Shown here: positions 12,479 to 35,283 of the stretch, in pieces
Layout: every line of letters begins with the position of its first letter
How positions within the stretch are numbered: position 1 is the stretch's first letter
Source: Myxococcales bacterium
GTDB lineage: Bacteria; Myxococcota_A; Polyangia; Nannocystales; Nannocystaceae
Direction: 5' to 3'
DNA length: 36,435 nucleotides
Assembly: GCA_014240065.1 (NCBI GenBank)
Contig: JAAZXR010000043.1
Span: 1-36,435, forward strand
Notes under the pieces: generated by a model
Database searches by the model: none
The model's input: only the letters and a program-made list of their open reading frames with translations
What the model was told of the DNA's origin: nothing
Program-made: the position numbers and the translations under genes

Positions 12479-12503
12479 GCGGGCTACTCCCGCAGCAGCC
12501 CGC
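12479..12503. terminator. Inverted repeat at convergent gene ends
   Basis: GCGGGCT (12479-12485) and AGCCCGC (12497-12503) form a 7-bp perfect stem with an 11-nt loop, overlapping the stop of the EAL-HDOD gene 13 bases after the stop of the CFI-box gene. No T-run. Confidence 0.35.
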
Positions 12504-13680
12504 CCATTTCACGCACCCACACGATGGCGTCGAGGTAGGCCTCCTGCACGCTCGGTCGATCCAGGTCCGGGAGCTGCGCGCGCTCAAAGTCTCCGAGTTC
12601 CTGAGCGACGACGGTGGCGAGGATCTCAGCCCCGGGCCCGCGACCCTCGAGCAGCGCCTCTCGAAGCGCTTCACTGCCGGGGAGCCCACCGAGCAGCGCG
12701 TTGAGGGGCCTGTCCATCAGCGCATCCAGCAACGAGAACATGCCCACCATAAAGAAAAATCCAGCGTGTTTTCTCCGGCTCCTCTGCGCGACGAGCTCGC
12801 TGGTCCGGGCGCGAATGAGCGCGGCGTCAAGCAGCACCGAGGGCTTCCCCTTCACGGTCGCGAGCGCGACCATCGACAGCCACTTTCGCACACCATCCTC
12901 GCCGAGTAACTCGAGCGCCCGCTGGACCTCACCCGTGATCTCACCGCGCCGGTAATGGACCGAGTTCGCCGCTCTCAACAGCCGATAGGTGAGCACTGGA
13001 TCCATCCGGATCACCCGATGGAGCGCCTTCAGGTCTCCCATGGCGGCGACCAAAAGCTCGGCGGAGCGCGACCGCCCCGCGGCGACCTCGCCTTCGTCGA
13101 CCACGTGCGGGCGCGACAAAAAGTAGCCCTGAAATCCCTGAGCGCCGGCGTGCCGACACCGCTCGAACGCCTCGCGGTTCTCCACGTGCGTGACGATCAC
13201 CGTCGAGTCGGGACACGACGCCACCACGGCCTCCAACGTCACCGCGCTCAGATCCCGCGCGTCGACCTTGATGAAGTCCGCGGTGCGACCAAACGCTGCC
13301 GCGCCCTCGACCTCACTCGCGCGGTCGATCGCGACTCGAAACCCACGCGAACGAAGCTCCGAGAGGCGCGCCAACGACGAGGCCGAGATCCCCCTCGACG
13401 CCTCGATCTCCAGCACCACAGCGTCCGCGGGTAAGCAGTCGGCCAAGCCGCTCTCGATCCAAGCCCCTGGGATATTGACGAACGCCAGCTTGCCTTCGCA
13501 GAGGCTGTGATCCCCCCCGTCGACGAAACCACGAAGGAGCAGCTGCGAGCTCGCGGCGTCGCGCGCGTCATCGCCTTCGCCCGGCCCTCGACGCACGGCG
13601 TCGCGAAACAACAGCTCGTATCCGATGACCGACAACCGGTGATCTACGATCGGCTGCCGAGCAATTCGGACCTGTACCAC
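12484..13680 (-). CDS. EAL-HDOD signalling protein, catalytically degenerate EAL
   Basis: 398 residues with the YuxH/CdgJ-type architecture: an N-terminal EAL-like domain (about 1-195) and a C-terminal HDOD domain (about 200-390). In the EAL part the signature position reads YELLFRDA (ELL at 22-24), and later strands (FVNIP, VLEIEAS, GFRVAIDRA, FIKVDARDL) follow the fold, but the metal-binding Glu/Asp set of an active cyclic-di-GMP phosphodiesterase is incomplete. It is therefore likely a binding or scaffold protein rather than an enzyme. The HDOD part keeps the helical core (DPVLTYRLLRAANS, ALELLGEDGVRKWLSMVAL). Known relatives act in motility or c-di-GMP signalling. The start is GTG 13680; the ribosome site is weak. 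Divergent from the phosphatase operon. Confidence 0.9.
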   Translation of the reverse strand: MVQVRIARQPIVDHRLSVIGYELLFRDAVRRGPGEGDDARDAASSQLLLRGFVDGGDHSLCEGKLAFVNIPGAWIESGLADCLPADAVVLEIEASRGISASSLARLSELRSRGFRVAIDRASEVEGAAAFGRTADFIKVDARDLSAVTLEAVVASCPDSTVIVTHVENREAFERCRHAGAQGFQGYFLSRPHVVDEGEVAAGRSRSAELLVAAMGDLKALHRVIRMDPVLTYRLLRAANSVHYRRGEITGEVQRALELLGEDGVRKWLSMVALATVKGKPSVLLDAALIRARTSELVAQRSRRKHAGFFFMVGMFSLLDALMDRPLNALLGGLPGSEALREALLEGRGPGAEILATVVAQELGDFERAQLPDLDRPSVQEAYLDAIVWVREMGGLLRE

Positions 13681-13836: not shown

Positions 13837-14556
13837 GTGCCGAGAATTCTCGTCGTCCGACACGCGCAGGCCTCGTTCATGAGCGCGAACTACGACCGCC
13901 TGTCCGACCTTGGCGTACAGCAGGCGCGTCGCCTCGCCGAGCACCTCGACGCGACGACATCCAAGGCGCGCCCGTTCGACGCCATCATCTCGGGGCCCGC
14001 CGAGCGTCATCAAGACACGGCGTCGATCCTTCGTGACCAGCTCGCGGGCGAGCGCTTGCGCGCGTCCGAGATCATCGGAGATCCGCGACTCGATGAGCAC
14101 GATCTGTCTTCCCTCGTCCGTGCGGTCCTGAGCGACCCCGCGCCCTCGGACCGGCTCGCCTCGCTCGCGCGAGACTTTGGTGCTGCCGACGGCCTCGCCG
14201 CCAAGTCGAAGGCCTTGCACAAGCTCACCGAACCCCTGGTCGCGGAGTGGATCGCGGGGACCCCCCGCGGCGAAGGCGTCGAACCGTGGCAGCAGTTCTC
14301 CACGCGCGTGCGCGAGGCCTTCGTCGACCTCACCACGCGCGGCGGGGCCTCACTGCTCGTGGTCACCTCCGTCGGCCCGCTCGCGGTCATGCTCGAGACC
14401 TGCCTCGGCGTGTCTCCCTTGCGGGCGTTTCAGACCGCGTGGCAGGCCCGCAACTCGAGCATGACCGAGTTCATCGCGGGCCCCCGCGGCGTCACCCTTC
14501 ACACCTTCAACCTCGTCTCGCATCTCGCCGAGGCCAGCACGCACACGCACCGATAG
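13837..14556 (+). CDS. Histidine phosphatase (phosphoglycerate mutase-like) family protein, second His replaced
   Basis: 239 residues from GTG 13837 (PRILVVRHAQASF). The phospho-accepting RHA motif is at 8-10 (H9). The second catalytic His, normally in an H-G-G-P loop, is absent: the strand LLVVTSVGPLAVML has Ser178-Val179-Gly180. A Ser-Gly-Gly variant is known in a large group of these proteins; Ser-Val-Gly is further removed. The ISGPAERHQDTASIL segment carries the conserved Arg and His of the family. Longer in-frame starts exist upstream but would add over 100 residues unrelated to the fold. It is first in an operon with the acyl-CoA dehydrogenase (15-base gap) and the APH kinase, a clustering seen in many bacteria. 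It may dephosphorylate the kinase product, or only bind it. Confidence 0.85.
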   Translation: MPRILVVRHAQASFMSANYDRLSDLGVQQARRLAEHLDATTSKARPFDAIISGPAERHQDTASILRDQLAGERLRASEIIGDPRLDEHDLSSLVRAVLSDPAPSDRLASLARDFGAADGLAAKSKALHKLTEPLVAEWIAGTPRGEGVEPWQQFSTRVREAFVDLTTRGGASLLVVTSVGPLAVMLETCLGVSPLRAFQTAWQARNSSMTEFIAGPRGVTLHTFNLVSHLAEASTHTHR

Positions 14557-14571
14557 ACAAGGAACCCAACT

Positions 14572-15777
14572 GTGGACTTTTTACCGCCCCCCACGATCCC
14601 TCCGCTCATCGAACAGCTCCGCGCCTTCATGGAGACCCACGTCTTGCCTGCGGAATCCGCCATGCACAACGCCTCGGTGTCTCTCTCGGACACGATCCAC
14701 CCGATCCAAGAGGCCGCCCGCGAGGAGGGGCTGTGGATGCCGCAGATCCCCAAGGAGCAGGGCGGGATGGGGCTGTCATTGCTCGAGCACGCCATCGTCA
14801 GCGAGGTCTTGGGGGAGAGCCCCCTCGGCCACTACGCCCTGAACTGCCAGGCGCCCGACGCCGGCAATATGGAGATCTTGATCGAGTATGGGAGCGACGT
14901 ACAAAAAGAGCGCTTCCTCGCGCCCCTCCTTCGCGGCGAGACCCGCAGCTGCTTCGCGATGACCGAACCCGAGCGGCCGGGCTCCAACCCCGTGTGGCTG
15001 AAGTCGCACGCGCGCATGGACGAAGATGAGTGGGTGATCAACGGCCACAAGTGGTTCACCACGGGCGCCGACGGGGCGGACTTTGTGATCGTGATGGTCC
15101 TGACCGATCCTGGGCAGAAACTCCACCAGCGGGCGAGCATGTTCGTCGTGCCGATGGATGCGGACGGGCTCACCCTCGTCCGCAACATCCCCGTGATGGG
15201 GGATGTCGGCCGCGAATGGGCGAGCCACGGTGAGCTCCGCTTCGACGGCTGCCGCGTCCCTGAACACAGCTTGCTCGGAGAGCGCGGCGGGGGGTTTTAC
15301 GTGGCGCAAGCGCGGCTCGGGCCCGGTCGGATCCACCACTGCATGCGGTGGATCGGCGTGTGCGAGCGCGCGCTGCGGATGATGTGCGAGCGCGCGGCGA
15401 CCCGTGAAGTGGCGCCCGACGACCCGCTCGGGAATCGCCAGACCATTCAAAACTGGATCGCCGAGAGCCGCGCGGAGATCGACGCCGCCCGCCTGCTCGT
15501 GCTGCGCGCCGCCTGGAAGATCCAGACCATCGGCGCGGGTTCCTCTCGGGCCGACATCTCCGCGATCAAGTTCTTCGTCGCGGACATCATGCAGCGGGTG
15601 CTCGACCGCTCCATCCAAACCCACGGCGCGCTGGGGATCACCGACGACACCGTGCTCTCTACTTTCTATCGTCACGAGCGAGGCGCGCGGATCTACGACG
15701 GCCCGGACGAGGTTCACAAGGGCGTGGTCGCGAGGAATATCCTGCAAGGCTACGGACTCAAGCGGCCCAAGAGATGA
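14572..15777 (+). CDS. Acyl-CoA dehydrogenase, ACAD10/11 (LvaC-like) type
   Basis: 401-residue FAD flavoprotein. The fold is clear: helical N-domain, the FAD-binding beta-domain motif CFAMTEPERPGSN (with the usual T-E-P/G-x-G-S), W-x-x-TGADGADF, and the C-terminal helical domain with QTHGALGITDD. At the position of the catalytic Glu of medium-chain dehydrogenases it has D376 in RIYDGPDEVHKG, the form seen in the ACAD10/11 clade. Start GTG 14572 has AAGGAA about 8-10 nt upstream. It overlaps the APH kinase by ATGA (15774-15777). In ACAD10/11 and Pseudomonas LvaA/LvaC, kinase and dehydrogenase act in turn on 4-hydroxyacyl-CoAs, the dehydrogenase-like enzyme removing phosphate. That role here is inferred. 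Ordinary alpha,beta-dehydrogenation feeding ETF is the alternative. Confidence 0.93.
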   Translation: MDFLPPPTIPPLIEQLRAFMETHVLPAESAMHNASVSLSDTIHPIQEAAREEGLWMPQIPKEQGGMGLSLLEHAIVSEVLGESPLGHYALNCQAPDAGNMEILIEYGSDVQKERFLAPLLRGETRSCFAMTEPERPGSNPVWLKSHARMDEDEWVINGHKWFTTGADGADFVIVMVLTDPGQKLHQRASMFVVPMDADGLTLVRNIPVMGDVGREWASHGELRFDGCRVPEHSLLGERGGGFYVAQARLGPGRIHHCMRWIGVCERALRMMCERAATREVAPDDPLGNRQTIQNWIAESRAEIDAARLLVLRAAWKIQTIGAGSSRADISAIKFFVADIMQRVLDRSIQTHGALGITDDTVLSTFYRHERGARIYDGPDEVHKGVVARNILQGYGLKRPKR

Positions 15778-16895
15778 CGGGCCCAGCGCGACACCCCCCG
15801 GCGCCTCCACCGGCGCTCGACGAAGCCGGTGACGAGCGTGAGGGAGAGCGGCTCGACAAGGTCGCCTTGGCGGCGTGGCTCTCCTCAAAGGGGCTCCTCC
15901 ACGCGGGCGCGCCGGTCGCGGTCCGTCAGTTCCGCGGCGGCTACTCCAACCTCACCTACCTCATCGAAGCGGGAGACGCGGCCTACGTATTTCGCCGGCC
16001 CCCCTTCGGGAACACTGTGCGCAGCGGCCACGACATGACCCGCGAGGTGCGGGTGCTCCGCGCCCTTGAAGGCGAGTTCAAGCAGGCGCCCAGGGTGGTG
16101 GCGGCGGCTGAGAACCTCCCGGCCCTTGGGGGCGCCTGCTACCTCATGGAGCGGGTCCACGGGGTCATCATCCGGCGTCGACTGCCGCGCGGACTCTCGG
16201 CCACGGAGGACACCATGCGGCGGCTGAGCGAGTCCATGATCGACACCCTCGCCCGCCTCCACACTGTGGACGTATCGCAGCCGCAGCTCGCAGCGCTCGG
16301 ACGACCGGAGGGATACGCCGAGCGACAAGTGGTTGGATGGACCGCGCGCTACGCCCGGGCCAAGACCGACGACCTCGAGGGGATGAAGCGCATGGCGCAG
16401 TTCTTGGCCGAGCGCCTGCCACCGATCAGCACGCTCCCTCCGAGCCTGGTCCACAACGACTTCAAATACGACAACCTCGTCCTCAACCCTGACAATATCG
16501 GCGACGTTCGAGCCGTGCTCGACTGGGAGATGGCGACCATCGGAGACCCGCTCATGGACCTCGGGACGACCCTAGGATATTGGGTAGAGGCGGGTGACCC
16601 CGCGCCGATCCAAGCGCTCGCGTTTGGACCCACCGCGCGACCCGGCAGCCTCACCCGCGCGGGGTTGGTCGCTCGTTATGCCGCCGCCCGCGGGGTGCCT
16701 GTCTTGGATCCCGTCTTCTACTATGTCTTTGGAATCTTCAAGATCGCCGTGATCATCCAACAAATCTATGCACGATTCGTCCGAGGGACGACCAAGGACA
16801 CGCGGTTCGCGGGGCTTGGCGCGGTGGTCGGCGTCCTCGCCACCCATGGCGCGAGCGTCTGCGACCGCGACAGCCTCGGGCCGCCGAGCCCGTAG
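15774..16895 (+). CDS. APH-family small-molecule kinase (LvaA / ACAD10-11 N-domain type)
   Basis: 373 residues, kinase-like fold. A glycine-rich turn FRGGYSNLTYLI is at 53-64, and Y71-V-F-R-R with the following helix gives the ATP pocket. The catalytic loop HNDFKYDN (H227, D229, N234) and metal-binding DWE (D250) in VLDWEMATIGDPLMDLG are intact, so it should be active. Despite the family name, this branch phosphorylates acyl-CoA hydroxyls rather than antibiotics, judging from mammalian ACAD10/11 and bacterial LvaA. The start ATG overlaps the dehydrogenase stop by 4 bases, so the two are co-translated, probably in fixed ratio. The first 25 residues are Pro/Glu-rich. No LvaB-like small partner is encoded nearby. 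Confidence 0.9.
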   Translation: MTGPARHPPAPPPALDEAGDEREGERLDKVALAAWLSSKGLLHAGAPVAVRQFRGGYSNLTYLIEAGDAAYVFRRPPFGNTVRSGHDMTREVRVLRALEGEFKQAPRVVAAAENLPALGGACYLMERVHGVIIRRRLPRGLSATEDTMRRLSESMIDTLARLHTVDVSQPQLAALGRPEGYAERQVVGWTARYARAKTDDLEGMKRMAQFLAERLPPISTLPPSLVHNDFKYDNLVLNPDNIGDVRAVLDWEMATIGDPLMDLGTTLGYWVEAGDPAPIQALAFGPTARPGSLTRAGLVARYAAARGVPVLDPVFYYVFGIFKIAVIIQQIYARFVRGTTKDTRFAGLGAVVGVLATHGASVCDRDSLGPPSP

Positions 16896-16899
16896 CCCC

Positions 16900-16928
16900 T
16901 TGGCGTGACAGCGCGTGGAGGGTACTGT
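16900..16928 (+). promoter_or_regulatory. Promoter of the esterase lipoprotein (leaderless)
   Basis: TTGGCG (16900-16905), exactly 17 bases, TACTGT (16923-16928), then 6 bases to the ATG at 16935. This is the best leaderless promoter in the window. GGAGG at 16917-16921 is 13 bases from the ATG, too far to be an ordinary ribosome site. Confidence 0.5.
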
Positions 16929-16934
16929 CGCCTC

Positions 16935-17924
16935 ATGCGCCGCACACTCACAGTATCTATCGTCTCCTTGCTCCTCGTGGGCTGCGGCGGCGACGCGGAG
17001 GACGCCTCCACCGACGGCGAGTCCGGGGACACCTCGACGTCGACCGGTGGAGATGGCGACGGTGACGGTGACGGTGACGGTGACGGTGACGGCGACGGCA
17101 CCCCAGGATGCAACGGTGGCGGGCTCAACTCCGGCGGCGACTACGTCCGTGATCTGCCGTTCGGCGGAATCACGCGGGAGTTTCAGATGCACCTCCCCGC
17201 CGACTACGACCCCGCGACGCCGACGCCGGTCGTACTCAATTTTCACGGGTTCGGATCCCAAGCCTCCGAACAGATCTTTTTCTCCAACATGAACGAGACC
17301 TCCGACGCCGAGGGGTTCATCGTCGTCTATCCGGAAGGACTCCCCAACGGAGGCAACGGGAGCCAGTCGTGGAACGCGGGATCGTGCTGCGCTGACGATC
17401 CGAGTCGAGACGACGTCGGCTTCGCGCGCGCCCTCGTCGACGAGCTCGACAACCTCGCCTGCATCAACCGGGACCAGGTCTTCTCCACCGGTATGTCCAA
17501 CGGCGGCTATATGTCTTATATGCTCGCGTGCGAGGCGCCCGATCTCATCGCCGCGGCCGCACCCGTCGCGGGCGCCCTCGGCATCTCCACCACGGCGTGC
17601 AATCCCGAGGAGGTCATTCCCCTGATCCATATCCACGGGACGGTCGATTCGCTCGTGCCCTACTCCGCGGCCGTCTCCAGCACCGACGCCTGGGCGGAGA
17701 AGGCCGGGTGCGTCGGTGACCCGGTGGAGGTCTACAATATGGGCATCGCGACCTGTGTCCGATGGGACGACTGCAGCCAAGGCGGCCCCGTCGAGCTCTG
17801 CTCCGTCGAAGGCATCGATCACTGCTGGCCCGGTCAGCTGTTTTGCCCGTTCGGATCCTCCACCGAAGACCTCATGTCCAACGAGGTCATGTGGGAGTTC
17901 TTCCAAGCCACCACCACCGGCTAG
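16935..17924 (+). CDS. Lipoprotein esterase, PHB depolymerase / feruloyl esterase-like alpha/beta hydrolase
   Basis: 329 residues. The signal peptide ends with lipobox LLVGC (C17), followed by a Ser/Thr/Asp linker and eight Asp-Gly dipeptides, then an alpha/beta hydrolase. The oxyanion region is LNFHGFGS, the nucleophile elbow G-M-S-N-G has S188, the acid is D238 in HGTVDSLVPY and the base is H296 in GIDHCWPG, so the triad is complete. This pattern is that of extracellular poly(3-hydroxybutyrate) depolymerase and LpqC/feruloyl-esterase-type enzymes; the true ester substrate cannot be read from sequence. Several Cys suggest disulfides. ATG 16935 is fixed by the lipobox length and the promoter; an ORF start at 16905 overlaps the -35. 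Convergent with thrB. Confidence 0.9.
   Translation: MRRTLTVSIVSLLLVGCGGDAEDASTDGESGDTSTSTGGDGDGDGDGDGDGDGDGTPGCNGGGLNSGGDYVRDLPFGGITREFQMHLPADYDPATPTPVVLNFHGFGSQASEQIFFSNMNETSDAEGFIVVYPEGLPNGGNGSQSWNAGSCCADDPSRDDVGFARALVDELDNLACINRDQVFSTGMSNGGYMSYMLACEAPDLIAAAAPVAGALGISTTACNPEEVIPLIHIHGTVDSLVPYSAAVSSTDAWAEKAGCVGDPVEVYNMGIATCVRWDDCSQGGPVELCSVEGIDHCWPGQLFCPFGSSTEDLMSNEVMWEFFQATTTG
17052..17099 (+). repeat. Hexanucleotide array coding (Asp-Gly)8
   Basis: Eight in-frame copies of GA(C/T)GG(C/T), mostly GACGGT, forming the acidic linker between lipid anchor and esterase domain. The core copies are identical, which points to slippage expansion. Confidence 0.9.
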
Positions 17925-20020: not shown

Positions 20021-20049
20021 TTGACGCTGGGTCCGTGGCGGGCGATACC
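20021..20049 (+). promoter_or_regulatory. Promoter of etfBA
   Basis: TTGACG (20021-20026), 17 bases, GATACC (20044-20049), giving a start near 20056 and a 20-nt leader with GGGAGG at 20062-20067. A perfect palindrome CCCCGCGGGG (20009-20018) abuts the -35 and could be an operator. Confidence 0.5.
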
Positions 20050-20076
20050 CCCCTCGACTATGGGAGGCACCATTTC

Positions 20077-20895
20077 ATGAAAATTCTCGTGACCGTGAAG
20101 CGTATTCCCGACCCAGACGAGAGCTTGAAGTTCGCTGACGGCGGCGTCGATTACAGCTCGTCCAAGTGGGTCCCCAACGCCTTTGACGAGTACGCCGTCG
20201 AGACGGCGCTGCGGCTCGCCGAGGTCGCGGGCTCCAAAGACCGACTCGCAGAGGTGATCGTCATGAGCGTGTGCCCGCAAGGGCAGCGGCAACACGTCAC
20301 CCAGTTCCTCGCCATGGGCGCGGAGCGAGGGGTGGTCGTCGACGCCGACGACAGCACCTTGGACAGCATCGCGATCTCCAAGCTCATCGCCGAGGTCGCC
20401 CGACGGGAAGAGGTGGACCTCGTCGTCGCCGGCAAGCTCTCTCAAGACAACGAAGGCAACCAGATCCCGCAACGCGTCGGGGGGCTCTTGAACTGGCCCC
20501 AAGCGTGCTTCGCTGCGGAGGTCCGCCGTGACAAGGACGCCAAGGAGCTGACCGTGTCTCGCGAGGTCGACGACGGCGTCGAGATTAAGAAGATTCCGCT
20601 CCCTGCCGTTTTGTCGGTCGACCTCCGCGTCGTCCTCCCGACGTCAGTGAGCAATGGCGTCACGGCTGCCGACCACCGCTACCAAGAAGGTGCCCGCCTC
20701 GCCTCGCTTCGTGGGATCACAATGGCGAAGCGCAAAAAGGTGCAGATCTTCACGCCGGATGATCTCGGCGTTCAAAACAGCGGCTCGGAGACGACCCGAG
20801 CGATCAACCCACCACCGGCGCGACCGTCCGGACAGATGGTCGCTTCGGCGGAAGAACTCGTAGAGAAACTTAAGACGGAGGCAAAGGTACTGTGA
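20077..20895 (+). CDS. etfB: Electron transfer flavoprotein, beta subunit
   Basis: The small ETF subunit takes electrons from acyl-CoA and other dehydrogenases and, with EtfA, passes them to ETF-quinone oxidoreductase. 272 residues, a little longer than the usual 250-260. It opens MKILVTVKRIPDPDESLKF; the AMP-binding segment is around DLVVAGKLSQDNEGNQIPQRVGGLL, and KKIPLPAVLSVDL and RYQEGARLASLRGITMAKRK are family hallmarks. Start ATG 20077 has GGGAGG 9 nt upstream. The alternative at 20035 lies upstream of the predicted -10. It overlaps etfA by GTGA. Confidence 0.97.
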   Translation: MKILVTVKRIPDPDESLKFADGGVDYSSSKWVPNAFDEYAVETALRLAEVAGSKDRLAEVIVMSVCPQGQRQHVTQFLAMGAERGVVVDADDSTLDSIAISKLIAEVARREEVDLVVAGKLSQDNEGNQIPQRVGGLLNWPQACFAAEVRRDKDAKELTVSREVDDGVEIKKIPLPAVLSVDLRVVLPTSVSNGVTAADHRYQEGARLASLRGITMAKRKKVQIFTPDDLGVQNSGSETTRAINPPPARPSGQMVASAEELVEKLKTEAKVL

Positions 20896-21866
20896 GCAAC
20901 GTACTCGTAGTTTTGGAATTCTCGGACGGTACGCTCAAGTCGAGCTGCCTCCCAGGCATCACCTGCGCGAAGCAGATCGCGGACGCCAACGGTGGCGAGC
21001 TCCACTTCCTGGTGTTGGCGGCGGACCCCGCGGCGAGCGCCGAGGCCGTGGCGAGCGCCGGATTTGGCGCGAGCACGGTGCACACCATGGCCAACCCGGC
21101 GTTTGAGCCGTTCACAGCGGAGGCGTGGGCCGACGGGATCGTCGCGGCCGTGCGCGCGACCAATGCGGCGGTCGTCGGCGGCACCGCGAGCTCCTCGCTT
21201 CGCGACGCCCTCCCGCGCGCGGCGGCCCTCCTCGACGCCGCCTTAACCTCCGAGGTGACGGCTGTCGGCGCGGAGGCCGTGCTGACCCGCCCGATCTCCG
21301 CTGGACGCGCGCTGCTCGACCAGGCCAGCAGCGGGGCGGTGTCCTTCTTCACCGCGCGCGGATCGGAATTTCCGCCCGCGGAGGCTGGCGGCGCGGCGGC
21401 GGCCGTCGCGGCGCTCCCTCCCGCCGACGCCTCCACGCGCGGGGTCACCGTGGTGGACGTTCAAAAGACACAGAGCTCCCGCCCCGCGCTCAGCGAGGCC
21501 GAGGTCGTCGTGTCCGGTGGACGTGGGATGCGCGAAGGTGAAAACTTCAAAATGCTCGAAGAGCTCACCGACCTGCTCGGAGGCGCGCTCGGGGCGAGCC
21601 GAGCAGCGACCGACGCCGGCATGGTTCCGGCGGACCTCCAGGTCGGCCAGACCGGGAAGATCGTCGCGCCCGACCTGTACATCGCGGTCGCGATCTCCGG
21701 CGCCATCCAGCACCTCGCCGGGATGAAGGGCTCCAAGACGATCGTCGCGGTCAACAAGGACGAAGAGGCCCCCATCTTTCAGGTCGCGGACTACGGTCTC
21801 GTCGGCAAGTGGGAAGACGAGCTCCCGAAGATTCTTGAGCTCGTCAAGGCTGCGAAGGCCGGCTGA
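20892..21866 (+). CDS. etfA: Electron transfer flavoprotein, alpha subunit
   Basis: 324 residues. The N-terminal domain pairs with EtfB; the C-terminal domain holds the redox FAD, seen in the signature region [40 protein letters not shown] and the following [27 protein letters not shown], with [25 protein letters not shown] at the end. Start GTG 20892 overlaps the etfB stop as GTGA, so the subunits are made in balance. Likely electron donors include the acyl-CoA dehydrogenase coded 5 kb upstream. Confidence 0.97.
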
Positions 21867-31329: not shown

Positions 31330-31788
31330 GTCTTCAAGATTCTCGCGGAGGCGCTCCGTCATCCCCACGAGTTCTTGCATCTGCTTGCGAGTGAAACCGT
31401 CAAAGGCCTCATCGAGGATCGCGTTGGACACCCTCAAAAATCTCTGAAATGCCCGGTACGCCTTCTTCGACGGGGAAACGAGGATCGCCCTCGAGTCCGT
31501 CGGATGCACATCACGCACCACCCATCCGCCCGCTTCGAGAGCACGAACAAACCGCCCAACGGTCACCTCTGAGAGGCTCATCTCCGCGGCGAGATCACGC
31601 GCGGTGAGCGGGTCCTTTTCCTGAAATAGAATCATGAGCGCGTTGGCCTGCGCCGGCGTCACCTTGTGCAGACGTTCACGCTCGAGCAGGGCTTGAATTC
31701 GACGCTCCAACCCCCGTTGAATGCGCGACAAATTCAACGCGGCGTCGGCTTGCGCGCGTCGATGTGCGATCTGTGCGCGAGAGGGCAC
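31324..31788 (-). CDS. MarR-family transcriptional regulator
   Basis: 154 residues from GTG 31788. Winged helix-turn-helix: LTARDLAAEMSLSEVTVGRFVRALEAGGWVVRDVHPTDSRAILVSPSKKAYRAF, with the recognition helix at SEVTVGRFVRALE and the wing D-x-R pattern (HPTDSRAI) typical of MarR. Flanking helices form the dimer and ligand pocket. Divergent from the thiolase/FadJ operon, with a near-perfect 16-bp palindrome over the operon's -10 region, so it most likely represses that operon and releases on binding an acyl-CoA or fatty acid; the ligand is inferred. Its own start is 5 nt from a -10-like hexamer. Confidence 0.93.
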   Translation of the reverse strand: MPSRAQIAHRRAQADAALNLSRIQRGLERRIQALLERERLHKVTPAQANALMILFQEKDPLTARDLAAEMSLSEVTVGRFVRALEAGGWVVRDVHPTDSRAILVSPSKKAYRAFQRFLRVSNAILDEAFDGFTRKQMQELVGMTERLRENLEDL

Positions 31789-31793
31789 ACCGG

Positions 31794-31822
31794 AGAGTCG
31801 CAGGCTACGCCGCCAAGTTCAA
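31794..31822 (-). promoter_or_regulatory. Candidate marR promoter
   Basis: Minus strand TTGAAC (31822-31817), 17 bases, GACTCT (31799-31794), 5 nt before GTG 31788. Same -35 and a near-identical -10 to the promoter at 6847-6875. Confidence 0.35.
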
Positions 31823-31861
31823 CCCCCGCGCTGCCCCCCTCGCGGCGTCCCGGGCGGTCGG

Positions 31862-31891
31862 TTGCAGAAATTTGATGAGCATGCTTATCTT
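31862..31891 (+). promoter_or_regulatory. Promoter of the thiolase/FadJ operon
   Basis: TTGCAG (31862-31867), 18 bases, TATCTT (31886-31891). Predicted start near 31898, leader about 19 nt with GGAGGA at 31904-31909. The region is markedly A/T-rich for this genome. Confidence 0.45.
31874..31889. promoter_or_regulatory. Likely MarR operator (16-bp palindrome)
   Basis: GATGAGCATGCTTATC is an inverted repeat with a perfect 8-bp centre (AGCATGCT) and one mismatched pair in 8. It covers the spacer and part of the -10 hexamer, where a bound dimer would block RNA polymerase. Size and symmetry are typical of MarR sites. Confidence 0.55.
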
Positions 31892-31916
31892 TTTAGAGTT
31901 TTCGGAGGAAATAAAT

Positions 31917-33122
31917 ATGCCAGCAGCAATGATCTACGACGCGGTCCGCACCCCTCGCGGCAAGGGGAAGAAGGGGGGCGCGCTCCATGGCGTCCGCCCC
32001 GTCGACCTCCTCGCCACCTCACTTCGGGCAGTCGCGGACCGCAATGAGCTCGACACGTCACGCGTGGACGACGTCGTCATCGGATGTGTCACCCAGGCCG
32101 GCGAACAGGGCGCATGCATCGCGCGTTTCGGCGCGCTCACGGCCGGCTATGATCAGCGCGCGTCGGGCGTGACCATCAATCGTTTCTGTGCGTCGGGCCT
32201 CGAGGCGATCAATCAGGGCGCCGCGATGGTGGCGTCGGGCTTCTACAACCTCGTGGTCTCGGGCGGCGTCGAGAGCATGTCTCGGGTCCCGATGGGCTCC
32301 GATGGCGGCGCCATCTGGGACCCTCAGACGCAGTGGGAGGTGGGGTCCGTCCCCCAAGGAGTGTCCGCCGACCTCCTCGCGACGGTCCACGGGTTTGACC
32401 GCGCCGAGGCCGACGCCTTCGCCGTGGAGAGCCAGCGGCGAGCGGCGTCCGCGAGCGAACACGGACGGTTCGATCGGAGCGTCATCCCCGTCGTCGATCG
32501 CAGCGGCTTGCCGATTTTGAGCGAGGACGAGTATCCGCGTCCCGGCACCACGACAGACGCGCTCGCCAAGCTCGCGCCCTCGTTTGAGATGATGGGACGC
32601 CAATTTGGGATGGACGCGCTCACCAAGGGGCGCTACCCCCACATCGACCGGATCTCCCACATCCACCACGCGGGAAACTCCTCGGGAATCGTGGATGGGT
32701 CTGCGGCGGTGCTCCTTGGGAGCGAGGAGTTCGGCGCTGCGCACGGCCTCAAACCCCGGGCGAGGATTCGCTCTTTCGCGTGTTGCGGAAGCGAGCCCGT
32801 GATCATGCTCGATGGCCCTCTGCCTGCCACACAGAAGGCGCTCGCGCACGCAGGTATGTCCATCAAAGACATCGATCTCTTCGAGGTCAATGAGGCCTTC
32901 GCGGCGGTGCCCATGACCTTCATGAAGCACTTTGACGTCTCCCCCGATCGCGTCAACGTACACGGGGGCGCCATCGCCATGGGCCACCCACTCGGTGCGA
33001 CGGGGGCCATGCTCCTCGGCACCCTCCTTGACGCCATGGAAGACAACGACGCGTCCACTGGACTCGTGACGCTGTGCATCGGCGGCGGCATGGGCGTCAC
33101 CACCATCATCGAGAGGACCTGA
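31917..33122 (+). CDS. Acetyl-CoA C-acyltransferase (thiolase, FadI/FadA-like)
   Basis: Last step of beta-oxidation: cleaves 3-ketoacyl-CoA with CoA to acetyl-CoA and a shortened acyl-CoA. 401 residues. The nucleophile is C91 in INRFCASGLEAI; the active-site segments VNEAFA, HGGAIAMGHPLGATGA (catalytic His) and CIGGGMG (second Cys) are all present. ATG 31917 is fixed by GGAGGA 8 nt upstream; the frame is open back to 31764, but that stretch crosses the promoter and marR start. The FadJ-like gene follows after 7 bases, so the two subunits of the oxidation complex are co-expressed under the divergent MarR regulator. Confidence 0.96.
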   Translation: MPAAMIYDAVRTPRGKGKKGGALHGVRPVDLLATSLRAVADRNELDTSRVDDVVIGCVTQAGEQGACIARFGALTAGYDQRASGVTINRFCASGLEAINQGAAMVASGFYNLVVSGGVESMSRVPMGSDGGAIWDPQTQWEVGSVPQGVSADLLATVHGFDRAEADAFAVESQRRAASASEHGRFDRSVIPVVDRSGLPILSEDEYPRPGTTTDALAKLAPSFEMMGRQFGMDALTKGRYPHIDRISHIHHAGNSSGIVDGSAAVLLGSEEFGAAHGLKPRARIRSFACCGSEPVIMLDGPLPATQKALAHAGMSIKDIDLFEVNEAFAAVPMTFMKHFDVSPDRVNVHGGAIAMGHPLGATGAMLLGTLLDAMEDNDASTGLVTLCIGGGMGVTTIIERT

Positions 33123-33129
33123 TCTGGCC

Positions 33130-35283
33130 ATGACTACGCAGGAATTTCAACACACCGCGCTCCGAGGGAGCATGGACCCCTCGTCTGGCGTCACCACGCT
33201 GACCCTCGCCATGCCCGGCAGAGCCAACGTCATCAACGCCGAGTTCGGCGATGGCCTCCGCGAGGCGCTCGCGTGGGCCCGCACCCACGACGATCTAAAG
33301 GGCATCATCCTCACCTCCTCCCACCGAGACTTTTGCGCGGGGGCCGACATCGACCGCCTGTTCGCGATGACCGATCCCGCGGAGCTGTACCAAGGCGTCA
33401 AGGAGCTCGGCGCCCTATTTCGCGACATCGAGACCTCCTCGGTGCCCGTGGTCGCCGCCCTCAACGGCACCGCCCTCGGCGGGGGATTGGAGCTCGCCCT
33501 CGCGTGTCATCATCGCGTCGCGATCGATACGCCCCGCACCAAGTTTGGGCTGCCCGAGGTTCAACTCGGCGTCATTCCAGGCGCGGGCGGGACCCAGCGC
33601 CTCCCACGCCTCATCGGGATCCAGGCCGCCACCGAATTGATCTTGCAGGGTAAAGAGCTGCGCTGCGCCCCCGCGCTGAAGGCGGGTGTGATCGACGCCC
33701 TGGTGGAGGGGGAGGACGAGCTGCGCGCCCACGCCCTCGCGTTTATCGCGAACAACCCTCGCGCCAAGCAACCATGGGACCAAAAGTCCCCGCGGATTCC
33801 TGGTCCGCAGCCGGGCTCTGGCGACGCCCGCAACATGTTGATGGCCGCCGCGGGGATGCTCCGAAAAAAGACGGCGGGGGTCTTTCGCGCGCCCGAGCTC
33901 GCCCTCTCCGCCATCTCCGAGGGGCTCGCGGTCGATCTCGACACGGGGCTCGACATTGAGGCGCGGTATTTTGTCGAGCTCGCCGTCTCCGACTCCTGCA
34001 AGGATATGATTCGGACGCTGTGGTACGGCCGCTCTGCCGCGCTCAAGTGCGAGGGCCTCCCGATCCACGAGGGCCCCCCCTTCAAGAAAGTTGCGATCAT
34101 CGGAGCCGGCATGATGGGCGCGGGGCTCGCCTTCGTCTGCGCCGACGCGGGCTACGAGGTCGTGCTCAAGGACGTCCATGAGGAGGCACTCGAGAAGGCA
34201 CGCGCGCACTTCGAGTCACAACTCAAGCGACGCAGGAAGCACCTCTCGCGGCCCGAGCGCGACGCGATCTTCGCCCGGTTGACCCTCACGCTCGAGCCGG
34301 GTCCGCTGCGAGACAGCGACCTCGTCATCGAGGCTGTGTTCGAGAATCTCGGGCTCAAACACGCCATCAATGAGGAGCTTGAGCCGCTGCTCGCGGAGGA
34401 CGGCGTGTGGGCCTCCAACACCTCCGCGCTCCCCATCTTTGATGTCGGCGCAAAAAGCCAGGCGCCGCAGTCCTTCATTGGGCTGCACTTTTTCTCTCCG
34501 GTGGAGCAGATGCCGCTGTTGGAGATCATCACGACCGCGAACACGAGCGACGCCGCGCTCGCGCGGTGTCTCGCGTTTTGCCAACGCATTAAAAAGCTCC
34601 CGGTCGTCGTCAACGACGGCTACGGATTTTACACCACCCGTGTTTTCTCCGCCTACATCATGGAGGGTGCCAACCTCGTCGCCGAAGGACATGACCCGGT
34701 GCTCATCGAGTGGGCAGCCCGCGCCGCGGGCATGGTGGTGCCACCGCTGCAAGTGTTCGATGAGGTCACGCTGACCCTGGGCGTCAAGGCAAACGAACAG
34801 GGCCGCAACTACCTCGGGGACGCAGTAGACTCTCCAGGCATGGATCTCGTCCGAGCGCTCGTCGCCGAAGGACGCACCGGAAAGGCGGACGGCGCCGGAT
34901 TTTACAACTACGAGGGCGGGAAGCGACGTGGACTTTGGGACAAGCTCGCGACCCACGCCTCCTCCTCTGGAGCGGACACGCTCGACGTGCCCGCGCTCCA
35001 GCGCCGCCTCCTCCTCGCGCAAGCGGTGCAGGCGGTGCGCTGTCTCGAGGGCGGGATCCTCCGCTCTGCCCGCGACGGTGACGTCGCCGCTGTCTTCGGG
35101 ATCGGCTTCGCGCCGCAGACCGGAGGACCCTTTGGCTGGCTCGATCGCCAAGACCTCACAGAGGTCATCGCCGAACTTGATGCCCTCTCCTCCGCCTGCG
35201 ACGAGCGCTTCGCTGCACCCGAGCTCCTTCGTGAGATGGCCGCCGAGGGGCGGCGTTTCTTCGACACGCCGCGCGCCGGCTAG
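33130..35283 (+). CDS. Fatty-acid oxidation complex alpha subunit, FadJ/FadB-like (enoyl-CoA hydratase / 3-hydroxyacyl-CoA dehydrogenase)
   Basis: 717 residues, two fused enzymes, matching the family length. The N-terminal crotonase domain has the oxyanion loop DFCAGADI and both catalytic Glu (E121 in GGGLELA, E143 in GLPEVQLG). From about 320 the NAD-dependent dehydrogenase starts with the Rossmann motif IGAGMMGAGLA; the catalytic dyad is H453 in LHFFSPVEQM with its partner Glu, and a C-terminal dimer domain follows (VVVNDGYGFYTTR). It hydrates trans-2-enoyl-CoA and oxidises the L-3-hydroxyacyl-CoA, handing the product to the thiolase encoded just upstream. The thiolase-then-alpha order resembles fadIJ. 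The ATG at 33130 has no strong ribosome site, so coupling to the thiolase is likely. Confidence 0.96.
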   Translation: MTTQEFQHTALRGSMDPSSGVTTLTLAMPGRANVINAEFGDGLREALAWARTHDDLKGIILTSSHRDFCAGADIDRLFAMTDPAELYQGVKELGALFRDIETSSVPVVAALNGTALGGGLELALACHHRVAIDTPRTKFGLPEVQLGVIPGAGGTQRLPRLIGIQAATELILQGKELRCAPALKAGVIDALVEGEDELRAHALAFIANNPRAKQPWDQKSPRIPGPQPGSGDARNMLMAAAGMLRKKTAGVFRAPELALSAISEGLAVDLDTGLDIEARYFVELAVSDSCKDMIRTLWYGRSAALKCEGLPIHEGPPFKKVAIIGAGMMGAGLAFVCADAGYEVVLKDVHEEALEKARAHFESQLKRRRKHLSRPERDAIFARLTLTLEPGPLRDSDLVIEAVFENLGLKHAINEELEPLLAEDGVWASNTSALPIFDVGAKSQAPQSFIGLHFFSPVEQMPLLEIITTANTSDAALARCLAFCQRIKKLPVVVNDGYGFYTTRVFSAYIMEGANLVAEGHDPVLIEWAARAAGMVVPPLQVFDEVTLTLGVKANEQGRNYLGDAVDSPGMDLVRALVAEGRTGKADGAGFYNYEGGKRRGLWDKLATHASSSGADTLDVPALQRRLLLAQAVQAVRCLEGGILRSARDGDVAAVFGIGFAPQTGGPFGWLDRQDLTEVIAELDALSSACDERFAAPELLREMAAEGRRFFDTPRAG

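Follow-up and report, generated by a model that had tools for sequence, protein, structure and literature searches.

Why should a kinase and a dehydrogenase that would make and consume a phosphorylated acyl-coenzyme A (CoA) be accompanied by a phosphatase-like protein? This question is raised by three genes in a 36,435-nucleotide stretch of DNA from a Myxococcales bacterium (contig JAAZXR010000043.1; "the window" below means this whole stretch), which encode a histidine-phosphatase-fold protein (HP), an acyl-CoA dehydrogenase (ACAD) and an APH-type kinase (APH). In ACAD10/11 and in LvaA/C, the kinase forms 4-phosphoacyl-CoA and the ACAD converts it to 2-enoyl-CoA, with zero net redox change (PMC12440821, PMC11342911). 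We consider it probable that the operon carries out hydroxyacyl-CoA dehydroxylation of this ACAD10/11 - LvaA/LvaC kind, with HP as its dedicated accessory.

The three genes are co-directional, with a gap of 15 bp between HP and ACAD and an ATGA overlap between ACAD and APH. Linkage, coordinates and overlap are all as given in the first-pass annotation of this DNA. The HP start at position 13837 agrees with the start position in relatives; a longer HP open reading frame begins upstream of this conserved start. Since the HP-ACAD-APH order recurs in other phyla, the linkage is far beyond chance, and the gene-neighbourhood survey that the first-pass annotation had called for thus returned conservation across phyla. 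The source genome assembly comprises 4.7 Mb in 235 contigs and is 97.7 % complete; judged by ACAD, the nearest named relative is Enhygromyxa salina.

The solved structures closest to ACAD by sequence were 4hr3, mouse ACAD11 (8v3u/8v3v) and human ACAD11 (2wbi), and matches to structures of the ACAD10/11 type lay far ahead of those to ordinary ACADs (E about 1e-81 versus 1e-42). In mouse ACAD11, D753 is the catalytic Asp and R626, H634 and R637 hold the 4-phospho group, and changes at these positions abolish the ACAD step (PMC12440821). All four residues have counterparts in ACAD (D376, R248, H256 and R259; Table 1). The ordinary ACAD 1ukw reads YEGT where the window's enzyme has YDGPDEVH and ACAD11 has ADGPDEVH. 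Across 135 aligned ACAD sequences the four residues were kept by the ACAD10/11-type rows, the exceptions being one row with HTMR and one truncated at the Asp. None of the genome's eleven other ACADs has them; the search of that genome returned 13 matches (the window's own gene and the eleven others, one of them matched as two halves), and an in-frame TAG was seen in one of the eleven. A maximum-likelihood tree, built by quick search with SH-like approximate likelihood-ratio test (SH-aLRT) support only and without bootstrap, gathered the ACAD10/11 type, including mouse ACAD11, in a single clade of 98 rows (SH-aLRT 99), with ordinary ACADs outside. By these four residues and its phylogeny the protein clearly belongs to the ACAD10/11 type. 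Residues and tree likewise uphold the earlier assignment of both dehydrogenase and kinase to the ACAD10/11 - LvaA/LvaC kind.

APH matched the kinase domain of ACAD11 (8v3u/8v3v) at E 1e-36, and also 3dxp and 9o56. Its motifs HNDFKYDN and DWE are intact, as had been read from the letters alone. In four distinct relatives (L077/L150, L153, L156 and L081), all Myxococcota, ACAD and kinase form one open frame of ~784-852 amino acids, and four of these five loci also carry HP upstream. The fused frames begin with the ACAD, the reverse of the kinase-first order of mammalian ACAD10/11. Such natural fusions support joint action of the ACAD and the kinase. No fusion of HP to either protein was found among the fetched loci.

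Judged by its family, the kinase would use ATP to phosphorylate a hydroxyacyl-CoA, probably at the 4-hydroxyl. From the ACAD11 residues we would expect Asp376 of ACAD to take the alpha proton while His256, Arg259 and Arg248 hold the departing phosphate. The products would be 2-enoyl-CoA and inorganic phosphate, without net redox change, and the enoyl-CoA would pass into beta-oxidation. HP would be an accessory rather than a pathway step; since its phosphate pocket and nucleophile His are kept and its second catalytic His is lost, it would most likely bind the phosphoacyl(-CoA) intermediate or its product. Once bound, it might either restrain the kinase or slowly remove phosphate, and we regard these two outcomes as about equally probable.

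The histidine-phosphatase fold reported in the first-pass annotation is confirmed by the PF00300 match and by an AlphaFold2 model (predicted local distance difference test 92.9, predicted template modelling score 0.91). The fold is that of branch 1 histidine phosphatases, with structure matches to PGAM5, the phosphoserine phosphatase 4ij5, 9mmh and PhoE (VIA Z 21-23, root mean square deviation 2.0-3.3 over 170-196 residues). What had been overlooked is that the second catalytic His is missing: HP reads TSVGP versus the usual SHGG, with S178 at the end of strand 173-177. The RH motif, second Arg and acidic residue of the branch 1 catalytic set are present, and the set is incomplete in this one His. 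Our survey of the operon-type HP family drew on genome contigs, plasmids and Myxococcota genomes, a few rows coming from the same or near-same genome; Ser replaced the second His in 68/68 complete members, and R8, H9, R57 and E87 were unchanged in 69/69. As a control, His was kept at that site in all 28 other PF00300 sequences from the same genome and its family, a set that includes a few near-identical pairs. On these alignments, loss of the second His is specific to the operon-type family, and old. Since the remaining catalytic residues are invariant, the predicted pocket is under selection. The idea that HP is a decayed pseudogene was rejected, the four catalytic residues being invariant across phyla. 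A classical phosphatase role appears doubtful because the second His is Ser in every complete member and kept in the control sequences.

When loci were collected by ACAD alone, HP lay directly upstream on the same strand in 21 of 80 (55-286 bp from domain to domain), and these 21 loci came from Myxococcota, Planctomycetota, Hydrogenedentota and Acidobacteriota. On plasmids and secondary replicons of Alpha-, Beta- and Gammaproteobacteria, Deinococcus and Streptomyces, HP was found directly beside the kinase in 8/8 regions read; seven of these contain short-chain dehydrogenase/reductase (SDR) and LvaC-type ACAD genes, and the eighth (Sulfitobacter) has ACADs of another type. HP thus adjoins ACAD or kinase in seven phyla (Myxococcota, Planctomycetota, Hydrogenedentota, Acidobacteriota, Deinococcota, Actinomycetota and Pseudomonadota). 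A search starting from HP alone, in Myxococcota, gave the same association: for 31 of 40 HP genes (30 at full score and one cut by a contig end), an ACAD or kinase of the ACAD10/11 type was encoded on the same strand no more than 4 kb away. Genome-wide statistics were confined to 189 Myxococcota genomes, among which an ACAD10/11-type gene was present in 23/23 with HP versus 77/166 without (Fisher p 1.1e-7, ignoring kinship). The reverse does not hold, HP being missing altogether from 27 of the 29 sampled genomes in which no HP adjoins the ACAD-kinase locus. We conclude that HP is an accessory, conserved in at least seven phyla, and that dependence runs one way: HP relies on the pathway, but not the reverse.

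As to what the accessory does, a serious possibility, though one we place somewhat below an even chance, is that HP is a partner subunit or regulator of the kinase, acting where Pseudomonas putida has LvaB or ACAD10 its HAD domain. P. putida requires the small protein LvaB, and P. citronellolis LA18T has HP without LvaB (PMC6692424). In ACAD10, the HAD domain lacks part of its catalytic motif, has almost no phosphatase activity and keeps its kinase in check (PMC11342911); its parallel with HP is an analogy, the two folds being unrelated. The HP gene stands directly beside the kinase gene in many phyla, and in Deinococcus deserti the two genes share 4 bp, in Pseudoalteromonas 1 bp. The distribution of DUF6285 (PF19802) bears on the comparison with LvaB. 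This family is likely that of LvaB, a lead from gene order and co-occurrence: in one locus (L159) it lies between kinase and ACAD, as in lvaA-lvaB-lvaC, and 45 of the 46 Myxococcota genomes with DUF6285 have an ACAD10/11-type gene. Its kinase partner appears to be of another clade. Among ACAD10/11-positive Myxococcota, DUF6285 occurred in 0/23 genomes with HP versus 45/77 without (p 7.5e-8, ignoring kinship). Against a substitution stands its absence from all 50 genomes with the window-type ACAD, including 29 without HP at the locus. Because DUF6285 is absent from such genomes with or without HP at the locus, the exclusion may merely reflect the kinase clade of the genome. A replacement of LvaB by HP is therefore hinted at by the mutual exclusion and weakened by this general absence. 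The whole source genome contains no gene of this putative LvaB family, in which sense the earlier statement that an LvaB-like partner is lacking holds; a plasmid search with one DUF6285 sequence gave no match. In addition, DUF6285 genes were seen beside APH kinases in 15 of 20 Myxococcota loci read (L201-L220).

Slightly less plausible is that HP works as a metabolite-repair phosphatase on stalled phosphoacyl-CoA or free phospho-acid, with Ser or another residue substituting for the second His. A pure scaffold would not need the four invariant residues, the patchy occurrence of HP suits an accessory of this type, and phosphate removal from 4-phosphovaleryl-CoA has been suggested for the histidine phosphatase that lies beside LvaA/LvaC homologues in the P. 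citronellolis levulinate cluster (PMC6692424). The second His is nonetheless part of the catalytic set conserved in branch 1 phosphatases, was kept in every paralogue of our control, and phosphate removal would reverse the kinase step. The first-pass annotation had HP either clearing stalled phospho-intermediates or sensing them; the loss of the His in every complete member weakens the former, and the latter survives. Overall, a weak specialised phosphatase or a kinase regulator with a phosphate pocket fits HP better than a classical phosphatase. More speculatively, HP might represent a new class whose site, fixed as Ser, retains phosphate (or a stable phosphohistidine) so as to modulate the hydroxyacyl-CoA kinase, by analogy an independent bacterial answer to the need met by HAD in ACAD10; we regard this as rather unlikely.

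It is also possible, though we doubt it more than any of the preceding proposals, that kinase and ACAD serve another substrate, with a different hydroxyl position or a different thioester, outside the 4-hydroxyacid pathway. The window's ACAD belongs to a bacterial clade of 86 rows (SH-aLRT 99), whose sister is an 11-row clade (100) with mouse ACAD11, 4hr3 and proteobacterial and Deinococcus genes. The window's clade is thus other than the bench-studied one, and since it has YDGPDEVH versus ADGPDEVH in the ACAD11/LvaC clade, a clade-specific Tyr before the catalytic Asp, its substrate may differ. The window genes that were scanned include no SDR or CoA ligase, and no homologue of LvaD or LvaE was recognised next to the operon. 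The four residues for catalysis and phosphate handling are nevertheless all kept. This clade difference weighs against dehydroxylation with HP as a dedicated accessory, as do the lack of LvaD and LvaE of the levulinate route next to the operon and the 9 of 40 Myxococcota HP genes without ACAD or kinase nearby. The kept nucleophile and acidic residues, for their part, argue against a purely inert HP. Separately, we noted Myxococcota HP members (L144, L145, L146, L149, L124, L137, L138 and L139) that have neither an ACAD nor a kinase of the ACAD10/11 type closer than 4 kb, some of them near PhyH or di-haem oxidoreductase genes. Finally, an ordinary fatty-acyl-CoA dehydrogenase beside an unrelated kinase and phosphatase, which has the general ACAD fold and nothing else in its favour, is contradicted by residues, tree and conserved neighbourhood and was rejected as extremely improbable.

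Table 1. Coordinates of the operon genes and of their predicted key residues in the window
Feature	Position	Strand	Basis
HP: histidine-phosphatase-fold protein, 239 aa, Ser178 for second catalytic His	13837..14556	+	Start GTG; PF00300 E 2e-16, AlphaFold2 model, PDB fold matches, residue survey
R8-H9 of HP: RH motif with nucleophile His	13858..13863	+	Kept in 69/69 members
S178 codon of HP, at place of second catalytic His	14368..14370	+	Alignment to 9mmh, 4ij5, 5zkk
ACAD: ACAD10/11-type acyl-CoA dehydrogenase, 401 aa	14572..15777	+	Start GTG; Pfam (three ACAD domains), PDB matches, motifs, tree
R248 ... H256-C-M-R259 of ACAD, matching mouse ACAD11 R626, H634, R637	15313..15348	+	Alignment; residue roles PMC12440821
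D376 of ACAD (YDGPDEVH), matching catalytic Asp D753 of mouse ACAD11; Glu in ordinary ACADs	15697..15699	+	Alignment
APH: ACAD10/11 - LvaA-type kinase, 373 aa	15774..16895	+	Start ATG; PF01636 E 4e-45; matches to 9o56, 3dxp, ACAD11 kinase domain
D229 codon, catalytic Asp of kinase (HNDFKYDN; N234)	16458..16460	+	H, D, N of motif kept in 102/102 homologues
DWE metal-binding motif of kinase (D250)	16521..16529	+	102 homologues: DWE 96, DWD 6

The immediate neighbours of the operon are a divergent gene for an EAL-HDOD signalling protein upstream of HP (12484-13680, minus strand) and, directly 3' of the kinase, a gene for a lipoprotein resembling extracellular short-chain polyhydroxyalkanoate depolymerases (16905-17924, likely start 16935). 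The latter was considered as a fourth operon member and rejected, with a homologue in 0 other fetched loci. Beta-oxidation genes whose enzymes could take up the enoyl-CoA lie on the same strand within 20 kb: electron transfer flavoprotein beta/alpha is encoded at 20035-21866, a thiolase at 31764-33122 and a multifunctional enzyme resembling FadB at 33130-35283.

The trio of HP with LvaA- and LvaC-type genes is already known from P. citronellolis (PMC6692424), and no other paper on HP in such operons was found in a literature light on subscription journals. None of the papers searched described how widely HP is spread, its dependence on genes of the ACAD10/11 type, the invariable lack of its second His or the separate clade of the ACAD. 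Only in 2024-2025 were human genes assigned to the dehydroxylation of fatty acids via phosphoacyl-CoA. In both settings a phosphatase-like companion goes with the kinase (HAD in ACAD10, HP here), which raises the question of why one is kept. A widespread HP family with an invariant Ser, tied to one reaction, offers a simple system in which to ask whether the companion removes, senses or limits the phospho-intermediate. The annotation of operon-type HP proteins as phosphatases may be wrong.

Among known systems, cluster PCLA_07f0390-07f0396 of P. citronellolis LA18T resembles the window in its LvaA-type kinase, histidine-phosphatase family protein (likened to HP by description) and LvaC-type ACAD, and in that no LvaB was found; it differs in having an SDR homologous to LvaD, a nearby CoA ligase and transporter, and another gene order. 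The lvaABCDE operon of P. putida KT2440, also likened by description, shares the LvaA/LvaC-type kinase-ACAD pair and the phosphoacyl-CoA intermediate, whereas it has LvaB, LvaD and LvaE and, as described, lacks a phosphatase. Mammalian ACAD10 and ACAD11 contain the same ACAD and kinase domains, the catalytic Asp and the HCMR/Arg residues; unlike in the window, the two domains are fused, ACAD10 carries a HAD domain but no HP, and the window's ACAD falls in a sister clade. Branch 1 phosphatases (PGAM5, 4ij5, PhoE and 9mmh) share with HP the fold, the RH motif, the second Arg and the acidic residue, but have the second catalytic His that is replaced by Ser throughout the operon-associated family.

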